Positions 1 to 8,641 of a stretch of DNA of 8,641 nucleotides are shown here, one piece after another. The DNA is taken from contig LUZH01000057.1 in assembly GCA_001602885.1 (NCBI GenBank), forward strand, positions 1 through 8,641, in the 5' to 3' direction. Positions within the stretch are counted from its first letter, which is position 1. Each line of letters opens with the position of its first letter. The notes under the pieces were generated by a model that made no database searches, was not told the DNA's origin, and saw only the letters and a program-made list of their open reading frames with translations. Position numbers and translations under genes: made by a program. Source of the stretch: Bacteroidales bacterium Bact_16. Its GTDB lineage: Bacteria > Bacteroidota > Bacteroidia > Bacteroidales > UBA932.

Positions 1-216
1 CGTCTTGATGTCCATCTTGCCGTCGCGGATCTTGGTGTTGTTGATGTCGTTTTTCGCGGAGATGATGTAGATCTCGTCGCTGCTGCGCTCCCAGACCTTC
101 TCAGGGACGGGAACGGAAAGGCGTGCCATCCGCTTGTGCGCTTCGCAGAAGCACTGACCGAAGCTGCGGAATTCGAAGCGAGGTTTGGAAATCTCGCCAA
201 TTTTAAGTTCTGCCAT
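1..216 (-). CDS. N-terminal part of an uncharacterised protein, possibly CYTH-like (3' end outside window)
   Basis: Reading leftward from an ATG at 216, 72 codons stay open to the window edge, so only the N-terminus is visible (starts MAELKIGEISKPRFEFRSFG). No signal peptide or membrane segment is seen, so the protein is probably cytoplasmic. Two segments stand out: a strand-like KPRFEFRSFG (about residues 11-20), and SDEIYIIS followed by NTKIRDGKMDIK (about 47-71). The E-x-R pattern early on, then alternating basic residues on a predicted strand, recalls CYTH/triphosphate-tunnel proteins, which bind triphosphate or polyphosphate. This is a recollection of pattern, not a demonstrated match. 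The start lies 29 nt after the lipoprotein stop, so it is probably the last visible gene of the phosphate-type operon. The leader is A/T-rich with no clear Shine-Dalgarno. That the gene is real is fairly sure; the family is a guess. Confidence 0.7.
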   Translation of the reverse strand, partial: MAELKIGEISKPRFEFRSFGQCFCEAHKRMARLSVPVPEKVWERSSDEIYIISAKNDINNTKIRDGKMDIKT

Positions 217-245
217 AATAAAAAACTAGAGTTTGTATATAGAAG

Positions 246-1067
246 TTAATTCCTTACATAATCATCTTCTTCAGCTGCCGTGGAGTTGGCTGCGCCCGGG
301 GTGAAGGCGTCCGTACGCATCCACTTGCCCGTTCCGTCGGGGACGCGGCTCCAGGAGCCGGCGTAGTTCGAGATGGAAGCGCCCCACTTGCCGTCTTCAT
401 CCTTGTCGCCGCGCTGGAAGGCGTCCAGCTTGGTGCCGTCCGGGGCGAAAAGCTCGACGATGACGCTCTTCTTGGCGGAGAAACCGCTGGTGAAGCCTCT
501 CTCGGTGGTCTTCTTGGCGCCCACGATGGCAAACCAGCCCTTGGCCGGGACGACCTCGCCGTCGATGCCGGTCCAGCAGTTGCCCTCGTCCTTGGAGATG
601 GTCACGCCGGTGAGCTTGATGGGGAAGTCGCTGGCGTTGTAGAGTTCGAAGAACTTCTCCTCGTCGGCACCTGCGCCATAGACCTCGTTGAGCTTGAGCT
701 TGGTCCAGTCGGTGGCAGGATCGCCCACCTTGTAGGAATACTTGTCGGAAGTGGTGGTGAAACCGGCTTCGTTGGTGACGGTGACGGTGAATTCGACCGT
801 GGTGCCGTCGGCCTGGGCCGGGATGGTGGCGGTATAGCTGCTGCCGGTACCGGACATCGCGACGTCCGTGCCGTTGTACTTCAGGGTGGCGGCGGTCACC
901 TTCTGGAGACCGGAGACGGTGGCGGTCACGACGACGTCGGAAATGGAGGTGGGAGCCTCAGGGGTGAAGACCACCTTGTCGATGCTCGACGGGCCCTTGA
1001 AAATTTCGTCCTTCACGCAGGCCGAAAGGGAAAGGAGAGCGGCCGCGATGAACAATATCTTTTTCAT
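246..1067 (-). CDS. Lamin-tail (LTD) domain lipoprotein, probably surface exposed
   Basis: 273 residues. The N-terminus is a lipoprotein signal peptide (MKKILFIAAALLSLSAC) with lipobox LSAC and acylated Cys17. The cysteine is followed by V-K-D-E; a lysine then acidic residues at +3 to +5 resembles the surface-export signal described for Bacteroidetes lipoproteins, so an outer-leaflet position is likely. Residues ~27-114 look like an Ig-like beta domain (PEAPTSISDVVVTATVSG, ending in TNEAGFTTTSDKYSYKV). Residues ~122-261 fit a lamin-tail domain: LKLNEVYGAG opening, FFELYNAS, PAKGWFAIVG, then GSWSRVPDGTGKW and FTPGAAN. A D-x-D-x-D-G loop at 221-226 resembles a calcium site. LTD domains occur in secreted or surface proteins, often beside nucleases and phosphoesterases; here no catalytic domain is visible, so a binding or scaffold role is inferred. 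It starts 19 nt after the porin stop, with an A-rich leader (AAAAGAA). Confidence 0.9.
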   Translation of the reverse strand: MKKILFIAAALLSLSACVKDEIFKGPSSIDKVVFTPEAPTSISDVVVTATVSGLQKVTAATLKYNGTDVAMSGTGSSYTATIPAQADGTTVEFTVTVTNEAGFTTTSDKYSYKVGDPATDWTKLKLNEVYGAGADEEKFFELYNASDFPIKLTGVTISKDEGNCWTGIDGEVVPAKGWFAIVGAKKTTERGFTSGFSAKKSVIVELFAPDGTKLDAFQRGDKDEDGKWGASISNYAGSWSRVPDGTGKWMRTDAFTPGAANSTAAEEDDYVRN

Positions 1068-1086
1068 AATCAGATTCTTTTAAGGA

Positions 1087-2454
1087 TTAGAAGTCGATTT
1101 CAAAACGGACGGCGAGCATGGAGTAGTCCACGCCGGCCTTGCCGGACTCGGTGACCACCTTCGTGTAGTCGCGCGTCGGCTTGCCGGCAGCGTCGAGACC
1201 CACGTAGAGCTTGTCCTTGCCGTTGGCGTAGCGGTCGTTGTTGTTGTACTGGTAGTTGAGCTGGACCTTCACGTTGTTGTTCACCCACCAGTTGAGGCCC
1301 ACGGTGTAGGCTTCGGCGCTGCCGCCGAACACCTTGCGCTCGGGAGCGTTGAGGTCGAGGAACTCGTAGCGGAAGCAGAGCTCGAGGTCGCCCCACTTCT
1401 TGCCGGGCTTAATCTTGGTGTACTTGCCGCCGTTGGCGTCGTAGCGCTGCCGTCCGCCGAAGAGGAGGTAGCCTGCCTGGGCGTACCAGCCGGAGAAGTT
1501 GATGGAAGAGACGCCGTCGTCGTTGAAGCGCACGTTGTCGCCGACATAGGCCGCCTCGTAGCGGAGGCCGTTCCAGTGGCCGGCCAGCTCAACGGTCCAC
1601 AGGTTGTTGTGGTCGTAGCCCTTCAGGTTGTTGGTGTCCATGTACTTCTTGCGGTTGATGCTGGTGGAGTTGCGGGCGCTGGCGCGGTAGGTGCCCCATT
1701 CGCCGGTGGCCTGGCTCACCTTGGTGGTGCGGTAGGAATAGGCCGCGCCGATGTGCAGGCTGGCGTTGTCCAGCTTGTAAAGCGGGCGGAAGACCACCTT
1801 CGTGGTGAGGGAATAGCCGGCGTTGCGGCCGAAATCCTTGTTGTTGTCAGCCACGTTGGTCCACTCTTCGCTGCCGGCCACTTCCTGCGTGAAGGCGCCT
1901 GCGCTGATCCACAGCCAGTCCTTGGCATACTTGGCGTTGATGCCCAGATGACGGGACGGGGTGAGGGCGGAGCACACCATCGGACGCTCCATGAACTGGA
2001 GGTAACGGGAGGTGGTGTTGCGCTGGATGGAGAAGTTCTCCTTGAAGTTGCCCACCTGGAGATCCAGGTTCGGGATGCCGGTATAACGGATCAGGGCGTC
2101 CTTCAGCTCCACGAGACCGTTGGCAAGGTCCATGTCGAACTCGCCGTACCAGCTCTCGTCGATCTGGCCTTTGACGGCGAAACGGGCACGGCGGATGCTG
2201 GTGCCGTTGCCGATCGGGTCGGCGTAGTCGGGGGCGCCGAAGAAGACGGCGCCGTCGGCCTGGGCCCGGATGTCGAACCAGAGCTTATAACCCGAAGTCG
2301 GGGAAGCCAGGACGAGGATGCCGTCCTGGGCCTCCACGTCGAGCCGGTCGGAGGACACCGCCACACCGTACTGGTTGTACTTGACGGGCTCCTGTGCAAA
2401 TGCCGCTGACAGGGCCGTCAGCAGGATTGCGATCATGCAAATTGGTTTACGCAT
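1087..2454 (-). CDS. Outer-membrane porin of the phosphate-selective OprO/OprP type
   Basis: 455 residues. A Sec signal peptide ends at AFA20 before Q21, and the C-terminus ends in alternating residues closing with phenylalanine (RFEIDF), the usual BAM recognition signal, so this is an outer-membrane beta-barrel. The middle follows the OprO/P family (PF07396) pattern: RRARFAVKG (88-96), an acidic/aromatic strand EFDMDLANG, LKDALIRYTG, then VGNFKENFSIQRNTTS (134-149), FMERPM and SRHLGIN. The later half has amphipathic strands with loops rich in Asn, Lys and Tyr. Classical OprP passes phosphate and OprO pyrophosphate/polyphosphate using arginine and lysine residues; substrate cannot be read here, and many Bacteroidetes members are of unknown specificity. 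The operon context (DUF47 and PiT-like genes upstream) supports phosphate or another anion. The 36-nt leader holds two tandem ATTTGGT heptamers (plus-strand reading). Confidence 0.9.
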   Translation of the reverse strand: MRKPICMIAILLTALSAAFAQEPVKYNQYGVAVSSDRLDVEAQDGILVLASPTSGYKLWFDIRAQADGAVFFGAPDYADPIGNGTSIRRARFAVKGQIDESWYGEFDMDLANGLVELKDALIRYTGIPNLDLQVGNFKENFSIQRNTTSRYLQFMERPMVCSALTPSRHLGINAKYAKDWLWISAGAFTQEVAGSEEWTNVADNNKDFGRNAGYSLTTKVVFRPLYKLDNASLHIGAAYSYRTTKVSQATGEWGTYRASARNSTSINRKKYMDTNNLKGYDHNNLWTVELAGHWNGLRYEAAYVGDNVRFNDDGVSSINFSGWYAQAGYLLFGGRQRYDANGGKYTKIKPGKKWGDLELCFRYEFLDLNAPERKVFGGSAEAYTVGLNWWVNNNVKVQLNYQYNNNDRYANGKDKLYVGLDAAGKPTRDYTKVVTESGKAGVDYSMLAVRFEIDF

Positions 2455-2490
2455 AGTGCTTCAAAATTTGGTATTTGGTATTAGGGTATT
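2455..2490 (-). repeat. Tandem heptamers in the porin leader
   Basis: The 36-nt gap between the HTH membrane protein and the porin is strikingly A/T-rich against G+C-rich surroundings. Plus-strand reading: ATTTGGT at 2466-2472, ATTTGGT at 2473-2479 and a diverged ATTAGGGT at 2480-2487. It could be a binding site, an internal regulatory leader, or simple slippage. No convincing TAnnTTTG promoter was seen inside it. Confidence 0.5.
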
Positions 2491-4140
2491 TCAGATGGAC
2501 TTGATGAACTGAACGAGGTTGTCGGAGCGCTTGAGCCCCAGCTTGATCCGAAGGCGGTAGCGGCTGATCTCGGCGCTCTTGGGCGTGATGTTCATCAGCG
2601 TCGCGATATATTTGGAAGAGAACCCCTGACGCAGGAGGATCGCCAGCTTGCGCTCGCTCTCGGTCAGGTTCGGGAAGGATTCTTTCAGGCGCATGTTGAA
2701 GTCTTTGTGCAGGATCTCCGACTGCGCGTAGAAATCGTTCATCTCGCGGGAAAAATACATCCGCTCCCGCAGGGAGCTCAGGAGCGCGTCGGTGGCGGCG
2801 TCCTTCTCGGCCGGGTCCGTCAGGCTCCTCACCTGGGAGAGCTGCTCGTAGACGCTCTCCATATATTCTTTCTGCTCGCTCACGCCCACGGCGAAATCGA
2901 CCAGCTCCTTGCGCTTGATGTCCAGCTTGTTGAGCAGGTCGCGCTCGTTCATCTCGGCCTTCACTTCGAGGGCCGAGAGGGTCTTCTGCGCATTGTATAT
3001 CTGCTGTTCGCGCGAGACGAGGATCTGCCGCTGAAGGTCGCGGCGCCGCTGGGCCCGGAAATACAGGGAGAGCACCGCCGCGATGACAATGGTGCCGAGG
3101 ACGATCAGGGTCGGGGTGATCCGGGCGTTCCAGTCCGTGCGGCCGGCATCCTCCGGCGACACGTTCAGGATCATCGACAGGCTGTAGCAGACGAGCAGGC
3201 CGAGGATCGGGCACACGACGGCGGACAGGGCGGCCTTGAGCACCTTCTCCCCTTCCACCAGCGCCTTGCGGCGGGACAGGCTCACGCCCACGAGCGCCGC
3301 CAGGAGCAGGACCGGAGCGGGCAGCGGCGTGGCCGTCAGGCCGAGCCGCGCGAGGACCGGCAGGGAAAACACCAGATAGGTCAGGCCCATCGCCGACAGG
3401 ATGGCGAACACGGAGCCGGACGAGAAATCGAGGTCCTGGTCCGCGACGTGCCAGGCCTTGGCGGCGAACTCCGGACGGACCAGCAGGAAAAGCAGCAGGG
3501 CGGGGACGGCCGCCACGGCGGCGGACACCGGGCCGGCGCCGAAAGCGGACACCGGGAAGAAGGCGACGATGGCGCCCAGGTTCCACGCCGCGGCCCCTGC
3601 CAGCAGGAAAGCGGCCAGGATACTCCCCACCAGGAGGCGGTGGTCGGAAATGACCAGATGGACCGGGCGGCTGCCCGGACGACGGACCGTCAACGCGACG
3701 AGCCCCGCGGCAAGCAGGCCGCAGAGCAGCGGGGCGGCGATCCAGGAAGCCGCCGTGCGCGCGGTGAGCGTCCAGTCCAGCGCCCCTTCCGTCATGAGGC
3801 GGAAACCGGCCACGGAGCCCAGGAATGCGAACGGGACCGCGGTGGAGGGGCTGATCAGGGAAGCGACCGACACGGCAACCGCCGTCGACAGGACGATGAC
3901 GAAGAGCGAGGGAAGGTCGGAAGTGGCGAGCTCCGGAAGGATGCCGGACTCCACCGGCACGCCCCAGGCGGCGCACACCAGCGCGCCGACGAAAAGCAGC
4001 GGCAGGAGGATCTTGACAGACCAGCGCTCGCTGGCACCGGACGCCCAGACCGGCCCCATCACCGCCGGCAGCTCGAACCGGATGACCGGCCAGACCGCCA
4101 GGAAAGTGACAAAGGACAAGAAGAGGATCCGGAACAACAT
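2491..4140 (-). CDS. Membrane-bound LuxR-type transcription regulator with a degenerate PiT (PHO4)-like transporter domain
   Basis: 549 residues in three parts. (1) Residues 1-~360 form about 10-12 hydrophobic helices. Several stretches align by eye with PiT phosphate transporters: ELPAVMGPVWASGA (23-36) where PiT has GANDVANAVGPAVGSGA; ISPSTAVPFAFLGSVAG (96-112) for PVSTTHA..GA..G; LDWTLTARTAASWIAAPLLCGLLA (121-144) for the W...SW..sPl..G..A helix; and VGVSLSRRKALVEGEKVLKA (284-303) for the second-repeat tSLadRaw..esav.RitG segment. The key GANDVAN Asn/Asp residues are not present. (2) Residues ~361-470 are charged and coiled-coil-like. (3) Residues ~489-546 are a LuxR/GerE-type helix-turn-helix (FPNLTESERKLA, then SSKYIATLMNITPKSAEISRYRLRIKLGL), the layout common in Bacteroidetes HTH regulators. 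The start is 3 nt after the DUF47 stop, with no clear RBS, so translation is probably coupled. Inference: a one-component sensor that reads phosphate or DUF47 state and regulates its own operon. The HTH is very likely; the PiT ancestry is moderately supported. Confidence 0.85.
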   Translation of the reverse strand: MLFRILFLSFVTFLAVWPVIRFELPAVMGPVWASGASERWSVKILLPLLFVGALVCAAWGVPVESGILPELATSDLPSLFVIVLSTAVAVSVASLISPSTAVPFAFLGSVAGFRLMTEGALDWTLTARTAASWIAAPLLCGLLAAGLVALTVRRPGSRPVHLVISDHRLLVGSILAAFLLAGAAAWNLGAIVAFFPVSAFGAGPVSAAVAAVPALLLFLLVRPEFAAKAWHVADQDLDFSSGSVFAILSAMGLTYLVFSLPVLARLGLTATPLPAPVLLLAALVGVSLSRRKALVEGEKVLKAALSAVVCPILGLLVCYSLSMILNVSPEDAGRTDWNARITPTLIVLGTIVIAAVLSLYFRAQRRRDLQRQILVSREQQIYNAQKTLSALEVKAEMNERDLLNKLDIKRKELVDFAVGVSEQKEYMESVYEQLSQVRSLTDPAEKDAATDALLSSLRERMYFSREMNDFYAQSEILHKDFNMRLKESFPNLTESERKLAILLRQGFSSKYIATLMNITPKSAEISRYRLRIKLGLKRSDNLVQFIKSI

Positions 4141-4143
4141 GGC

Positions 4144-4806
4144 TTACAGACTGCGTTTGATGGCCATCACGGAGAGCTGTTCCGCCACCTTGACCGCCGC
4201 GGTGGAGAGGTCTTCGATATGCAGGGCGAAGTAGCGGAGGTGGAATTTCTCGCTCAGCTTGAGGTGCTGCATGTCGTGGAAGACGGTCCGCTTGATGGAC
4301 TGCGAGAGCTTGACCGCTTCCTTTTCATAGAAATAGACCCGGTGGGACGATTCGGAGACCTTGTCGGGCTCCGTGAAATAGGCTTTGGTGCCCGGGATGG
4401 TCGTCTCGACGGCCGTCGTGGCCAGGTCCGTGAGTTTCATGAACTCCTTCTTCAGCTCCTGCGGCACGTTGGGCGCTTCGATCTCGAACTGGATCAGGTC
4501 GTTGGACAGGATCGTGAAGATGTGGTCGAAACGCTCGAGCAGGCGCATGATGTCGCCCCGGTACCGGATGAGCGTGCCCCGCGAATAGAGGCTGTTCTCG
4601 ATCTCGCGGCGCAAGGCGCCCGCCTCGCCCTCGAGCCTGGCCATGGTGGAAAGGTTCTCGGCGAAGCCTTCCGTGTCGTTGTAGAGGTAGCAGCGGATAC
4701 CATCCTTGAAGATGATCAAGGCCGTATCCACATCATTGAGGAGCTGGTCGACAGACTCGACGAAGCGGAAAGATTTCTTGGCAGAGAACAATTTAAACAG
4801 TTTCAT
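4144..4806 (-). CDS. DUF47 family (PhoU-like) phosphate-transport accessory protein
   Basis: 220 residues from ATG at 4806, starting MKLFKLFSAKKSF. No signal peptide or membrane span; the sequence is helical and charged, as in PhoU-like bundles. Family hallmarks of DUF47 (PF01865/TIGR00153 type): the short FKLF start, a helix around ARLEGEAGALRREIENSL (56-73), then IRYRGDIMRLLERFDHIF (80-97) and a C-terminal IEDLSTAAVKVAEQLSVMAIKR helix. DUF47 genes usually sit beside PiT transporters and are thought to control them; here the next gene, 3 nt away, is PiT-like. The usual E-x-x-A-D metal motif reads E-G-E-A-G at 59-63, so metal binding may be altered. An upstream in-frame TTG at 4839 would add 11 residues, but it overlaps the -7 promoter box, so the ATG at 4806, preceded by a GGAG, is preferred. 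Confidence 0.9.
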   Translation of the reverse strand: MKLFKLFSAKKSFRFVESVDQLLNDVDTALIIFKDGIRCYLYNDTEGFAENLSTMARLEGEAGALRREIENSLYSRGTLIRYRGDIMRLLERFDHIFTILSNDLIQFEIEAPNVPQELKKEFMKLTDLATTAVETTIPGTKAYFTEPDKVSESSHRVYFYEKEAVKLSQSIKRTVFHDMQHLKLSEKFHLRYFALHIEDLSTAAVKVAEQLSVMAIKRSL

Positions 4807-4827
4807 CCGGTCTCCAGGTTGTTTGCT

Positions 4828-4859
4828 CAAAGGTAGCAATTTAAGGAGCAGAAAAACAA
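4828..4859 (-). promoter_or_regulatory. Bacteroidetes-type promoter of the phosphate-type operon
   Basis: On the minus strand, TTG (4859-4857), 21 nt, then TACCTTTG (4835-4828) matches the Bacteroidetes sigma-ABfr consensus (-33 TTTG/TTG, -7 TAnnTTTG). Transcription would begin near 4821-4823, giving a leader of about 15 nt before the ATG at 4806. Confidence 0.75.
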
Positions 4860-4861
4860 GT

Positions 4862-4893
4862 ACTCTACAAGTTTTGCAGTGTTATTGTAGAGT
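4862..4893. promoter_or_regulatory. 9-bp perfect inverted repeat next to the operon promoter (candidate operator)
   Basis: ACTCTACAA (4862-4870) and TTGTAGAGT (4885-4893) are exact reverse complements separated by 14 nt. The repeat ends 2 nt from the -33 element of the leftward promoter, where an activator or repressor would bind. Centre-to-centre arm spacing is 23 nt, about two helical turns. On the plus strand a short T-run follows, so a weak terminator is possible, but no plus-strand gene needs one. Confidence 0.5.
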
Positions 4894-4970
4894 TTTTAAA
4901 ATCACAAAAAGGCCCCCACACGCGCAGAAGGCCGCTCTCGAAAACAGGTTTGTAGAATTCTCCCGCCCGC
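4894..4970. other. Intergenic stretch with no gene recognised
   Basis: No credible coding frame is seen. On the minus strand a GGCC...GGCC pair followed by five T (about 4934-4906) could be a weak terminator for a leftward transcript arising in the structured segment to its right, but the stem is only 4-5 bp. Confidence 0.3.
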
Positions 4971-5085
4971 AAGGCCGGACAGCTCCCTGCAAACGTCGCT
5001 GCGCTCCCCTTCCCACTTCCTGCGGAAGCGGGCCCCTCCCTCTAAGCCGAGGGTGGCATGGTTTGCTGGAAGCTGTCCGGACCTT
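4971..5085. repeat. Structured non-coding element: long imperfect inverted repeat enclosing two hairpins
   Basis: The arm at 4971-4994 (AAGGCCGGACAGCTCC... to CAAAC) pairs with 5061-5085 (GTTTGCTGGAAGCTGTCCGG then ACCTT) over about 22 base pairs with two mismatches and one bulged base. Inside lie CTTCC-TGC-GGAAG (about 5026-5038) and CCCTC-TAAGCC-GAGGG (about 5038-5053). The whole would fold into a stem with a two-armed head on either strand. It could be a small RNA, a REP-like or MITE-like dispersed element, or a regulatory leader; the strand cannot be chosen. Any short open frames through it look like peptides forced by the palindromes rather than a gene. Confidence 0.6.
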
Positions 5086-5107
5086 GCCTGGCAGACACTG
5101 GCAGGCA
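5085..5107. repeat. Small inverted repeat beside the structured element
   Basis: TGCCTG (5085-5090) and CAGGCA (5102-5107) are reverse complements around an 11-nt loop, and the loop region also contains CTGGCAG twice in direct orientation. It directly abuts the larger inverted repeat and may belong to the same element. Confidence 0.4.
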
Positions 5108-5201
5108 TTGGTAATCCAGCGCAGAAGATGCTGATCATGCAGACGCCCGCGCAATAATATATAGGACGCGCGAGAAGAATGTCGAAAAAAGTGAAAAAAG
5201 T
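5108..5201. other. Remaining intergenic DNA before the rightward promoter
   Basis: The sequence passes from G+C-rich to A/T-rich here (GCGCAATAATATATAGG, then A-runs at about 5184-5200). No gene, tRNA or clear hairpin is seen. A GCGCAGAAG word at 5119-5127 repeats one at 4922-4930, bracketing the structured element. Confidence 0.4.
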
Positions 5202-5232
5202 TTTGGAGATATGAAAAATGTGATTACCTTTG
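5202..5232 (+). promoter_or_regulatory. Bacteroidetes-type promoter of the outer-membrane receptor gene
   Basis: TTTG (5202-5205), 19 nt, then TACCTTTG (5225-5232) is a close match to the Bacteroidetes housekeeping promoter. The predicted start of transcription is near 5238-5240, giving a leader of about 28 nt with an A-rich CAGAAACAAA just before the ATG at 5268. Confidence 0.8.
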
Positions 5233-5267
5233 CGGTGTACTAATATACTATTACACGCAGAAACAAA

Positions 5268-7655
5268 ATGAAGAAACTTATGAAAATCGCGCTCCTGATG
5301 CTCTGCACGCTTTCTTTCAGCACTGGAGCCTTCGCCGCCCGCCAGGGCGAGACCACCCTTCGCGGTACCCTCGTAGACACCGCCGGCGAGCCGGCCGGTT
5401 TCGCTACCGTATATCTTTCGGCCGCCGACGGCACCGTCGTCACCGGCAACACCGCCGACGAGAACGGCCGCTTCGAGCTGCGCGCCGCCGAAGGCACCTA
5501 CACCCTCGGCGTCAACCTCGTCGGCTACCGCGAGGTCAAGCAGGAAGTCAAGCTCGCCGGCTCGCTCGTCGAGCTGCCCGCCATCACCCTCTCGGAAGAC
5601 TCCGAGCTGCTCGGCGAGGCGGTCATCTCCGCCGTGATGCCCAAGACCCGCCTCACGGGCGAAGGACTTGCGACGTCCGTGCGCGGCTCCGTCCTGGAGA
5701 ACGCCGGCTCCGCCCGCGACGTCCTCGGCAAGGTCCCCGGTCTGATCAAGAGCCGCGACGGCCTCGAGGTCGTCGGCAAGGGCGCGCCGCGCATCTACAT
5801 CAACGGCCGCCGCATGACCGACGCTTCCGAGCTGGACCGCCTCCAGAGCCACGAGATCCAGAGCGTCGAGGTCATCACCAACCCGGGCGCCCAGTATGAC
5901 GCCACCGTGCGTGCCGTGGTGCGCATCCGCACCATCCGCCGCCAGGGCGAAGGCTTCGGCTTCGACGTCACCCTCTCCGACCAGCAGTCTCTCCAGAAGA
6001 AAGACTTCAACGATCCGAGCGGCAACCTCAACGTCAACTACCGCACCGGCGGCGTGGACATCTTCGCCGGCGCCAATTACTCCTCCACGACCCAGACCCA
6101 GACCAGCACCCTGACGCAGGAGACGCTCGGCAAGGCCAACTACCGCCAGGTAGAAGACCTGGACGGCTACTTCAGCAACAAGACTGCCGGCGCCAACGGC
6201 GGCGTCAACTGGCAGATCGCCGACAACCACTTCGCCGGCTTCAAGCTGGACTACAACAGGAGTATTTCCTACAAGGAGTTCACCTGGATGGAAGGCGACA
6301 TGTTCGTCAACGGCACCCTGCTCGACCATCTCCGCACGGAGAACACCGGATCCAACGGCAGCCACGCCCCCTACTCCTTAGGTGGGAACGCATACTATAA
6401 CGGCTCCATCGGCAAACTCGGCATCGACCTGAACCTGGACTACTACAAAGTCACCGACAGCAAGGCCAACACGGCCCTCGAGACCAGCAACATCGAAGGG
6501 GCGACGGTGAAGACGGAGTCCGCCTCCAACCTCAACCTCTACGCCGCCAAGCTCGTGCTCTCCTATCCCATCTGGCGCGGCATGCTGCAGGTGGGCACCG
6601 AAGAGACCTTCACCCGCGGCAAGGACGACTACACGCTGTCCGGGGCCAACATTCCGGCCTCCACCGCCAAGGTGCGCGAAGACAACATCGCCGCCTTCGC
6701 CAACTACGGCTTCGTCCTCGGACAGTTCGGCCAGCTGAGCGCCGGCCTCCGCTACGAGCACGTCAACTACGCCTACGACGACCTCCTGGGCCAGAACAGC
6801 TTCACCCGCAAGTATGACAACTTCTTCCCGTCGGTCTCCTTCGCCGGTGTCTTCGGCAAGGTCCAGCAGATGTTGAGCTACAGCGCCCGCACGACCCGCC
6901 CGAACTACTCGGCGCTCTCCAACGCGATCCGCTACAACAACCGCTACACCCTGCAGAGCGGCAACGCCGCCCTCCAGCCGCAGACCACCCACTCCATCTC
7001 GTCGACCACGGTCTGGAACTTCTTCACCTTCGTGCTGAACTATGACCGGACGAACGATCCCATCATCACCTGGGCGAACATCTACGACGACGAAGGCACC
7101 ATCCTCCTGAAACCGCACAACCTGGACAAGCCGTACCGCCAGCTGTCCGCCTACGTGGTCGCCACGCCGACCATCGGCATCTGGAACCTGAACTTCGTCG
7201 GCGGCGTCCAGCAGGGATGGCTCAACATCGACGTCAAGGATGCCGACAACAAGGTCGTGCGCACCCTCTCCTTCAACGACAAGCCGTTCTTCTTCGTGCA
7301 GCTCAACAACACCTTCTCCCTGCCGAAGGGCTGGCAGTTCGAGCTCGGTGCAGAATACCACTCCCCGGGTTACTCCCAGAACATATTCCTCACCAACCAC
7401 TACCTCGACGTCAACGCTGCCATCCAGAAGACGCTCCTGCGCGATGGCTCCCTGGTGCTCCGCATCACCGGCAGCAACCTCGCGAACCTGGCCTACTACG
7501 ACATCGACAGCAACACCGGCAACTACCACATCCTCCAGGCCAACCGCTTTGACACGCAGCGGATCGGCATCTCCATCCGCTACCGCTTCAACACCGCGGC
7601 CAGCAAGTACAAGGGCACGGGTGCCGGCAAGGATGCAAGAGACCGTATGAAATAG
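5268..7655 (+). CDS. Outer-membrane beta-barrel receptor (OMP_b-brl_3 type) with CarboxypepD_reg-like and plug domains
   Basis: 795 residues. Signal peptide with cleavage at AFA23. Residues ~30-108 are a carboxypeptidase-regulatory-like beta domain (LRGTLVDTAGEPAGFATVYL, then GRFELRAAEGTYTLGVNLVGY). Residues ~128-224 are a plug-like domain (SARDVLGKVPGLIKS, APRIYINGRRM, IQSVEVITNPGAQYDA). The rest, ~230-786, is a barrel of amphipathic strands with aromatic girdles, ending YRFN. A short tail KYKGTGAGKDARDRMK follows the last strand, as is usual in this family. The architecture is TonB-dependent-receptor-like, but no clear TonB box and no SusD partner are visible, so this is not a typical SusCD pair. 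Substrate is unknown. It is transcribed divergently from the phosphate-type operon, whose promoter has the same -7 octamer; shared control is possible but unproven. Confidence 0.92.
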   Translation: MKKLMKIALLMLCTLSFSTGAFAARQGETTLRGTLVDTAGEPAGFATVYLSAADGTVVTGNTADENGRFELRAAEGTYTLGVNLVGYREVKQEVKLAGSLVELPAITLSEDSELLGEAVISAVMPKTRLTGEGLATSVRGSVLENAGSARDVLGKVPGLIKSRDGLEVVGKGAPRIYINGRRMTDASELDRLQSHEIQSVEVITNPGAQYDATVRAVVRIRTIRRQGEGFGFDVTLSDQQSLQKKDFNDPSGNLNVNYRTGGVDIFAGANYSSTTQTQTSTLTQETLGKANYRQVEDLDGYFSNKTAGANGGVNWQIADNHFAGFKLDYNRSISYKEFTWMEGDMFVNGTLLDHLRTENTGSNGSHAPYSLGGNAYYNGSIGKLGIDLNLDYYKVTDSKANTALETSNIEGATVKTESASNLNLYAAKLVLSYPIWRGMLQVGTEETFTRGKDDYTLSGANIPASTAKVREDNIAAFANYGFVLGQFGQLSAGLRYEHVNYAYDDLLGQNSFTRKYDNFFPSVSFAGVFGKVQQMLSYSARTTRPNYSALSNAIRYNNRYTLQSGNAALQPQTTHSISSTTVWNFFTFVLNYDRTNDPIITWANIYDDEGTILLKPHNLDKPYRQLSAYVVATPTIGIWNLNFVGGVQQGWLNIDVKDADNKVVRTLSFNDKPFFFVQLNNTFSLPKGWQFELGAEYHSPGYSQNIFLTNHYLDVNAAIQKTLLRDGSLVLRITGSNLANLAYYDIDSNTGNYHILQANRFDTQRIGISIRYRFNTAASKYKGTGAGKDARDRMK

Positions 7656-7686
7656 GACCTAAACGACTTCCATATATATCGTGAAA

Positions 7687-7721
7687 GGAGGTACGCAATT
7701 TGCAAGAAATTGCGTACCTTC
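7687..7721 (+). terminator. Strong hairpin between receptor and hydrolase-like genes (terminator or operator)
   Basis: AGGTACGCAATTT (7689-7701) and AAATTGCGTACCT (7707-7719) are perfect reverse complements of 13 bp around a 5-nt GCAAG loop, extendable by a G-T and a G-C pair. It lies 33 nt after the receptor stop. The following sequence, TCGCTTTGTTAT, is T-rich but not a true T-run, so termination would be imperfect. The right arm contains TACCTTCG (7715-7722), one base from the -7 consensus, but no -33 element is at the right distance. Confidence 0.55.
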
Positions 7722-7751
7722 GCTTTGTTATAACACTATTGCCCAGTATCC

Positions 7752-8641
7752 ATGAGAAAAACTTTCTTCCTGCGCATCGCAGCGATCCTGCTGCCGCTGC
7801 TGATGGCCGTGCCCGCCACGGCCGCGCACAAGAATTTCAAGGTTTCCGTCTATGTCCGCGCCTATGAGGTCCAGAAGATGAAGGACCCCGCCTGGCTGGA
7901 GTCCACCTGGAAGATCATTTCCGACCAGCTGGACGTGGACAAGATCTATCTGGAGACGCACCGCGACCTGCTGATCGTGGACGACGAGACCCTCGAACAG
8001 GCCAAGGCCTTCTTCCTCAAGCGAGGCATCGAGGTGGCCGGCGGCATCACCTACACCATCAACGAAGCCAACGATTTCGAGACCTTCAGCTATTCCGACC
8101 CGAAGGACCGCGAGATGGTGCGCCGCATCGCGGAGCACACGGCGAAGCATTTCGACGAATTCATCCTCGACGACTTCTTCTTCACCAGCAGCAAGAAGGA
8201 CGTGGAGATCGAGGCCAAGGGCGACCGCAGCTGGACGGAATACCGCCTGGAGCTCCTCAAGGAAGCCGGCAAGACGCTCGTCGTCGACCCGGCCAAGGCC
8301 GTCAACCCCAAGGTCAAGGTCATCATCAAATACCCCAACTGGTACGACCATTTCCAGGGCCTGGGCTTCAGCCTGGAGGACGGCCCCAAGATCTTCGACG
8401 GCGTGTGGACCGGTACGGAGACGCGCGACCCGTCCAGCGCCCAGCATCTCCAGAACTATCTGGGCTACAACATCATGCGCTACTTCGAGCACCTGTCCGG
8501 CGGCCGCAACGGCGGCGGCTGGGTGGACGCCGGCGGCATCTTCATGAGCATGGACCGCTACGCGGAGCAGCTGCACCTGACGGCCATCGCCCAGGCGCGC
8601 GACGTGATGCTCTTCGCCTACAACCAGCTGCTGGAGGTCCG
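7752..8641 (+). CDS. Secreted TIM-barrel glycoside-hydrolase-like protein (3' end outside window)
   Basis: An open frame of 296 codons from ATG at 7752 to the window edge. A Sec signal peptide (MRKTFFLRIAAILLPLLMAV, cleavage near ATA24) has no lipobox, so the product is periplasmic or secreted. The mature part alternates strands and helices as in a (beta/alpha)8 barrel: VSVYVRAYEV (31-40), DKIYLETHRDLLIV (63-76), IEVAGGITYTI (93-103), FDEFILDDFFFT (134-145), VKVIIKYPNWYDHF (188-201), KIFDGVWTGTETRD (213-226), then GGRNGGGWVDAGG. The strand-end acids Asp140/Asp141 and Glu223 are where catalytic acids sit in clan-D-like alpha-glycosidases; assigning them as catalytic is inference. The family resembles uncharacterised Bacteroides secreted proteins; I cannot give a GH number. 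It lies 96 nt after the receptor gene, possibly with partial read-through past the hairpin. Confidence 0.85.
   Translation, partial: MRKTFFLRIAAILLPLLMAVPATAAHKNFKVSVYVRAYEVQKMKDPAWLESTWKIISDQLDVDKIYLETHRDLLIVDDETLEQAKAFFLKRGIEVAGGITYTINEANDFETFSYSDPKDREMVRRIAEHTAKHFDEFILDDFFFTSSKKDVEIEAKGDRSWTEYRLELLKEAGKTLVVDPAKAVNPKVKVIIKYPNWYDHFQGLGFSLEDGPKIFDGVWTGTETRDPSSAQHLQNYLGYNIMRYFEHLSGGRNGGGWVDAGGIFMSMDRYAEQLHLTAIAQARDVMLFAYNQLLEV

Follow-up and report, generated by a model that had tools for sequence, protein, structure and literature searches.

The DNA analysed here, hereafter the window, is a stretch of 8,641 nt from Bacteroidales bacterium Bact_16 (UBA932; GCA_001602885.1, contig LUZH01000057.1, positions 1–8,641 of the forward strand), and it encodes a protein in which a membrane domain with the fold of the PiT phosphate transporters is joined to a LuxR-type helix-turn-helix (HTH). 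Such PiT-LuxR fusions fall into two classes: class I, with an intact PiT domain, and class II, to which the window protein belongs, with the transport motifs lost. The reading that we prefer, with a probability of roughly 0.6, is that the protein is a membrane one-component transcription factor descended from a PiT transporter, which would sense phosphate, act through its HTH on CTCTACAA sites and control its own operon. The gene and its parts, with "TM" for transmembrane and "ORF" for open reading frame, are the following.

2491–4140, minus strand: PiT-LuxR fusion of class II (eroded PiT domain), 549 aa, single ORF; Pfam PHO4 and GerE matches, each under cut-off; 197 homologues
3151–4140, minus strand: PiT-fold membrane domain, about residues 1–330, two repeats, transport motifs lost
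3580–3582, minus strand: codon of N187 in the PiT-fold domain
3055–3120, minus strand: added TM helix, about residues 341–362, then RAQRRR (from the sequence and the start of model helix 341–437)
2674–3054, minus strand: long coiled-coil-like helices, about residues 363–489 (model helices 341–437 and 442–487)
2494–2673, minus strand: LuxR/GerE-type HTH, about residues 490–549, recognition helix region PKSAEISRYRLRIKL

Membrane helices, a coiled coil and a C-terminal LuxR HTH had been described in the original prediction, and this architecture is confirmed, with model helices at 341–437 and 442–487. The membrane domain has the PiT fold with two related repeats and the tail has the GerE HTH fold, though the Pfam GerE match lies under its cut-off; the presence of a TM domain and a DNA-binding-type domain in one chain is the architecture of a transmembrane one-component regulator. 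Given the added TM helix, the tail would lie in the cytoplasm. Derivation of the membrane part from PiT, also proposed at the outset, is upheld by global alignment with canonical PiTs (hhalign, 75%, E 3e-6); the local alignment is weak (52%, E 1.5e-4), the canonical set consisting of the 13 of 30 loci that passed an ND..N filter (17 were dropped), with L081 added and the 742-aa L082 excluded by length. The suggested comparison with PF01384 gave a divided answer, in that a PHO4 match is present but at 21.6 bits falls under the cut-off of 33.7, compared with 192.9 and 207.1 bits for class I proteins.

Homologues with the same fusion, which the original prediction had proposed to collect, are numerous. 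A phmmer search in which 7998 candidates were scored returned 197 proteins at E ≤ 1e-3, the closest 98% identical over its full length, and among the 120 matches listed many relatives carry PF00196 and PF01384 together in precomputed Pfam annotation. Some source names cover both halves, for example "phosphate/sulfate permease/DNA-binding CsgD family transcriptional regulator". GTDB genomes were scanned and gave 112 encoding loci; the 80 best (31–93% identity) were kept and, together with the window, make up a set of 81. The titles of the kept loci name Bacteroidales, Bacteroidia, Rikenellaceae or Tidjanibacter, and many mention ruminant foregut or hindgut samples. When a class I protein is the query, all 7999 scored proteins pass E 1e-3; the 120 matches listed are all near full length and, where names are present, are mostly called "inorganic phosphate transporter", "permease" or "hypothetical". 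The PiT-LuxR family looks large. Irregular copies also occur: at L049:7233-9368, DUF47 and fusion matches lie within a single ORF, the fusion match from residue 83 only, which reflects either a deletion or an assembly fault, and L190:5990-7807 is a class I fusion with a broken frame in a draft genome.

The sister class, class I, found in Bacteroidales, has an intact PiT domain attached to a tail of this kind and retains NDxxN, PVST, NNIxN and PVSS in 20/20 aligned rows, the class I sample having come mostly from the top hits of a single query and been reduced from 125 to 16 representatives for the residue alignment of the two classes. N(D/N)xxN, which we take to be the PiT signature of both repeats and which is present in class I (20/20), occurs in none of the class II rows, 0/35 in one alignment (A2) and 0/29 in another (A1). 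Class II proteins also lack N24, the third Asn of the second class I motif and most of the Ser/Thr residues of both hairpins; positions aligned to the class I PVST and PVSS are now A/S-V/A and S/P-A/V, and a literal PxS(T/S) appears anywhere in the domain in 1/35 A2 rows and 4/29 A1 rows. N187 is invariant (35/35 class II rows), and 35/35 rows as aligned by MAFFT have an acidic residue at position 23, next to that of the first Asp; at this first ND motif MAFFT and hhalign disagree by one column, the acidic residue being displaced from the Asp in hhalign. With the signature absent from both class II alignments, the word "transceptor", which had been applied to the window protein, is not supported for it, and going by the motifs the term suits class I better.

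Mean pairwise identity in the PiT part and tail is 0.67 and 0.51 for class I (20 rows, taken from fetched loci and the top hits of one query), and 0.28 and 0.59 for class II (35 rows). In 11 class II pairs, two of them with a synonymous rate (dS) above 1, the ratio of nonsynonymous to synonymous rates (dN/dS) is 0.05–0.24 in the membrane part and 0.014–0.088 in the coil and HTH. From these figures it follows that constraint has shifted from the transporter to the tail, while the membrane domain is still under selection. By its motifs, the class I PiT part likely still transports phosphate, and class I is probably the ancestral class. The class II protein, judged in the same way, is PiT-derived rather than a PiT transporter and is filed with the membrane one-component regulators, because no described PiT-derived DNA-binding regulator turned up.

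Descent of the tail can be followed in a tree that includes 26 other LuxR tails, namely 24 of 25 non-fusion loci (one has no tail matching the pattern) together with L109 and L115. Class II forms a clade (100/99), and class II with 15/16 class I rows forms another (100/99), separate from the 26. This phylogeny shows the class II tail to share common descent with the class I tail.

The fusion gene is embedded in a conserved transcriptional neighbourhood, which in the window runs on the minus strand in the order DUF47, fusion, OprO/P porin, lipoprotein with a lamin-tail domain (LTD) and the start of a further gene, D1.

4144–4806, minus strand: DUF47/PhoU_div (PitR-type) accessory protein, 220 aa, operon gene 1; PF01865 30.4 bits, cut-off 24.4; start codon picked to match relatives
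1087–2454, minus strand: OprO/P-type phosphate-selective outer-membrane porin; PF07396 E 1.8e-42
246–1067, minus strand: lipoprotein with LTD; PF00932 38.3 bits, cut-off 34.3
1–216, minus strand: conserved downstream gene D1, 5' part only, leaving the window; from its translation

Of the 81 loci, 78 have DUF47, 78 have the porin and 75 have the LTD gene, with all genes on the same strand and in the same order, in agreement with the earlier view that the gene lies in a phosphate-type operon; the DUF47 assignment rests on the PF01865 score and on its position next to the PiT-type gene. All three DUF47 absences are at contig ends, as are two of the three porin absences and four of the six LTD absences; L077 has no LTD gene despite ample sequence, and L079 lacks both LTD and porin with 669 bases left. 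D1, which is 212 aa in relatives and matches no Pfam family at E 0.01, directly follows LTD as the next ORF in 48 loci (e.g. L003:11875-12510, L075:11755-12390), and in many loci a CYTH-domain gene and a DASS-type anion permease gene lie beside it.

Other phosphate genes in the same organisms give a context for this operon. A PF01384 match over cut-off occurs in 130/148 genomes of the order, fusions counted, and 2/16 class II fusion genomes (G004, G010) have a full canonical PiT. PstC over cut-off occurs in 0/16 class II and 4/6 class I genomes; PstC matches under cut-off in 16/22 genomes (E ≤ 1e-3) were taken as other ABC permeases. NptA-type transporters are present in 13/16 class II genomes, the exceptions being G004, G010 and G015. 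These absences in class II genomes are soft, because by title the genomes are metagenome assemblies. In G004, the canonical PiT (364 aa, L081:1444-3172) is separate from the fusion operon and adjoins a 216-aa gene that by eye is PhoU/DUF47-like. Three class II genomes (G007, G002 and G001) encode 649-aa Na/Pi cotransporters with PF02690 and a PhoU domain, at L197:1430-3379 (+), L199:4414-6363 (+) and L198:1283-3232 (-), which end in a PhoB-type winged helix (Trans_reg_C E 2e-21, 1e-16 and 5e-13, respectively). By domain content, these NptA-type proteins are a second fusion of an importer to a DNA-binding domain; a 568-aa protein of G005 (L200), tested likewise, is without the winged helix.

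Upstream of DUF47, the window contains the following elements, along with a divergent neighbour outside the conserved unit that has relatives at 2/81 loci, window counted.

4885–4892, minus strand: candidate operator half-site CTCTACAA, 86 nt 5' of the DUF47 start
4863–4870, plus strand: inverted second copy of CTCTACAA, 64 nt 5' of the DUF47 start
4950–4957, minus strand: degenerate third copy, TTCTACAA
4828–4835, minus strand: operon promoter -7 element TACCTTTG, called Bacteroidales-type by a consensus that we assume to apply
5268–7655, plus strand: divergent OMP_b-brl_3 outer-membrane protein gene, sharing the intergenic region with the operon

Most loci have a TAnnTTTG/A-type -7 element and CTCTACAA copies 5' of DUF47. 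Among 77 of the 78 upstream regions (L044, with too little upstream DNA, was left out), 72 contain CTCTACAA, with 132 occurrences in total where 200 Markov shuffles gave 0.7, and 74 have an exact CTCTACA no more than 200 bp away; the exceptions are L049 (start misjudged, motif farther up), L063 (about 250 bp up) and L076 (no exact site within 200 bp). CTCTACA has a strand bias of 168 to 12 and is kept in 32/35 upstream regions that have no mutual BLAST match. Control gaps upstream of other genes in the same loci initially gave 12/103, which became 2/92 after removal of 11 that overlapped the operon's own upstream region. The dominant arrangement is of direct pairs 11 bp apart, and the window has an inverted pair. 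The exact tandem CTCTACAANNNCTCTAYA has 7 sites in 16 fusion genomes, 6 of them before the fusion operon, and the reversed pattern has 1. Single CTCTACAA copies also occur in coding DNA, with 115/245 locus sites outside the 200-bp upstream stretch, many of them inside the DUF47, porin or LTD genes; two more lie in coding DNA of the window, at 637–644 and 4679–4686.

The motif also accompanies LuxR-type genes of other kinds. In two genomes, at L109 and L115 (about 1501–1541), the gap that separates a SusC-like gene from a TPR-coiled-coil-LuxR gene contains two CTCTACA repeats. The recognition helix of this LuxR protein is nearly identical to that of the fusion, and the arrangement points to a putative recognition code shared by this Bacteroidales HTH type. 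Near 25 non-fusion LuxR genes (of 30, five fusion loci being excluded), CTCTACA occurs at 7 loci, whereas its 210 anagrams average 0.88 and only CTCTACA itself (1/210) reaches 7; among all 7-mers, A/T runs included, it ranks 107 of 4099. Further LuxR-type genes in other Bacteroidales adjoin at least one intergenic CTCTACA (L163, L160, L165 and L166), L163 having four loose matches, three of them exact. Because the motif is found beside non-fusion LuxR genes, it is tied to the HTH type and not to phosphate genes alone.

These observations are consistent with a mechanism in which the PiT-fold domain in the inner membrane, aided by the DUF47 (PitR-like) protein encoded just upstream, would sense phosphate supply, and in which the added TM helix and coiled coil would relay the state of the domain to the cytoplasmic HTH. 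The HTH in turn may bind the CTCTACAA repeats of its own promoter and so control DUF47, the regulator itself, the phosphate porin and the lipoprotein, and in many relatives also the CYTH-domain protein and the DASS-type anion permease. A class I protein, whose PiT part is likely still a working transporter, could read flux or occupancy directly; in class II, with its ion and phosphate motifs lost, the domain would be mainly or only a sensor. Phosphate is the presumed signal, although another is possible, for instance another anion passing through the DASS permease, and coupling of DUF47 to the PiT part is envisaged by analogy with PitR and PitA. Activation at low phosphate is the likeliest direction. 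Motif sites that precede the promoter, like those of the window, would suit an activator; in some hindgut loci they lie nearer the -7 element.

Several other explanations have to be set against this reading. An assembly error joining a transporter gene to a regulator gene, which the original prediction had named as a possible undoing, is scarcely conceivable, as nothing was found in its favour and full-length relatives in many independent assemblies exclude it; the two halves are one gene. A true transceptor, in which class II both transports phosphate through an altered binding site and regulates, would fit a membrane domain that is kept and constrained, the invariant N187 and acidic position 23, and the scarcity of full canonical PiTs (2/16) and of PstC over cut-off (0/16) in fusion genomes. 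We nevertheless consider it unlikely, given the loss of N24, of the third Asn of the second class I motif and of most hairpin Ser/Thr, the second alignment that shifts the acidic residue off the Asp, and the NptA-type transporters of 13/16 genomes. Equal doubt attaches to the view that the PiT part is a mere membrane anchor or scaffold, the signal being sensed by DUF47 or some other protein that acts on the tail: DUF47 is the strictest partner, its only absences being at contig ends, and PitR proteins are described, in the available text of a recent study, as repressing PhoR together with PitA (PMC13170248), but a full 330-residue two-repeat fold under a dN/dS of 0.05–0.24 would be needless for an anchor.

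Somewhat less improbable, while still doubtful, is that the CTCTACAA arrays serve another regulator, such as a PhoB-like protein, and that the fusion has other targets or does not act on DNA at all. Direct repeats 11 bp apart resemble the layout of PhoB-type boxes, and OmpR-type response regulators are present in some of these genomes; however, exact tandem sites are nearly limited to the fusion operon (6/7), unlike a regulon-wide box, and the same motif stands beside unrelated genes that encode the same HTH type. A PhoB box as the sole source of the motif is disfavoured by this near-uniqueness. The TIGR02154 count (over cut-off in 0/22 genomes) carries no information, because only 2/14 control genomes pass. 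Returning to the one-component reading, a number of points weigh against it as well. The 11-bp direct repeats resemble PhoB-type boxes more than inverted LuxR/NarL sites; the exact tandem is at the operon in only 5/16 fusion genomes; CTCTACA-N3-30-CTCTACA has 28 sites (12/16 genomes) against 15 reversed, less than twofold, and CTACAA-N5-CTACAA has 6 (6/22 genomes; 2 before fusion operons) against 17 reversed. In class I promoters the motif is weaker, being clear in L186, L187 and L188, a variant CCCTACAA in L190 and poor in L185 and L189. In the tail tree, class II is nested in class I on a weak branch (84/63), and the class I tail L188 falls outside the joint clade on a long branch. A literal PST is found in the membrane domain of 3/35 A2 rows (the window protein, L001 and L034) and in no other A2 row, that of the window protein lying in the first hairpin, two columns away from the PiT Ser-Thr by alignment, and some residual transport by class II is possible because N187 and the acidic residue near the first Asp persist. 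Phosphate binding, DNA binding, including that of the HTH to CTCTACAA, and regulation by the fusion stand as predictions from sequence.

A broader proposal, which we hold tentatively and at rather less than even odds, is that Bacteroidales wire phosphate importers straight to DNA. PiT-LuxR would have begun by reading its own transport state and controlling a phosphate operon, rumen and hindgut lineages would then have dropped transport to leave a pure sensor, and in some genomes that also have the fusion NptA, with its PhoU domain, would in parallel have gained a PhoB-type winged helix. If so, both PhoR and a separate response regulator may be dispensable for phosphate control. How phosphate import is converted into a transcriptional signal in bacteria is an open question on which the PiT-LuxR operon bears: according to the available text of the 2026 PitR study, if import is not sensed, the strong co-occurrence of accessory regulators with importers is unexplained (PMC13170248). 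An importer fold, a PitR-type protein and a DNA-binding domain share this operon, and one chain combines two of the three, so that a single protein and a single promoter suffice to test the link; the intact and eroded classes form a natural series in which to ask whether the signal is transport, occupancy or neither. The evidence suggests that gut and rumen Bacteroidales read phosphate via a retired transporter wired to DNA.

Among known systems, PiT transporters (PF01384; TmPiT 6l85) differ from class II, which has lost N(D/N)xxN and most hairpin Ser/Thr and has added a TM helix, a coiled coil and an HTH; class I proteins, several of them named "inorganic phosphate transporter" in databases, have the transport motifs intact, unlike class II. 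Transporter folds are also found in signalling proteins such as the Amt-kinase fusions, whose output is phosphorylation of a separate regulator. No description of a PiT-LuxR fusion or of a PiT-derived DNA-binding regulator was found in searches of the open-access PMC literature, so that the original claim of an undescribed architecture stands for the literature searched but not for precomputed Pfam, which already lists PF01384 with PF00196 on relatives. In Bacteroides fragilis, PhoB controls phosphate genes that include a putative phosphate/sulphate permease (PMC3547664). Transmembrane transcription regulators, enriched in Bacteroidota, likewise combine membrane and DNA-binding domains in one protein, but the available main text gives no phosphate-transporter example and uses "permease", "LuxR" and "GerE" 0 times (PMC10269533). 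The Eggerthella proteins DadR, HcdR and CadR, LuxR regulators with 10–12 TM helices and activators by genetics, share a polytopic membrane domain and a C-terminal LuxR HTH; they come from Actinobacteria and are set apart by a description that, in its available text, mentions no PiT relation, coiled coil or DUF47 (PMC9734109). CbrA, an SLC5 transporter domain fused to a histidine kinase, offers a parallel in that a transporter fold serves a signalling protein and, as far as the available text goes, transport is possibly dispensable for signalling; it phosphorylates a separate regulator, however, whereas PiT-LuxR has its DNA-binding domain in the same chain (PMC8871633).
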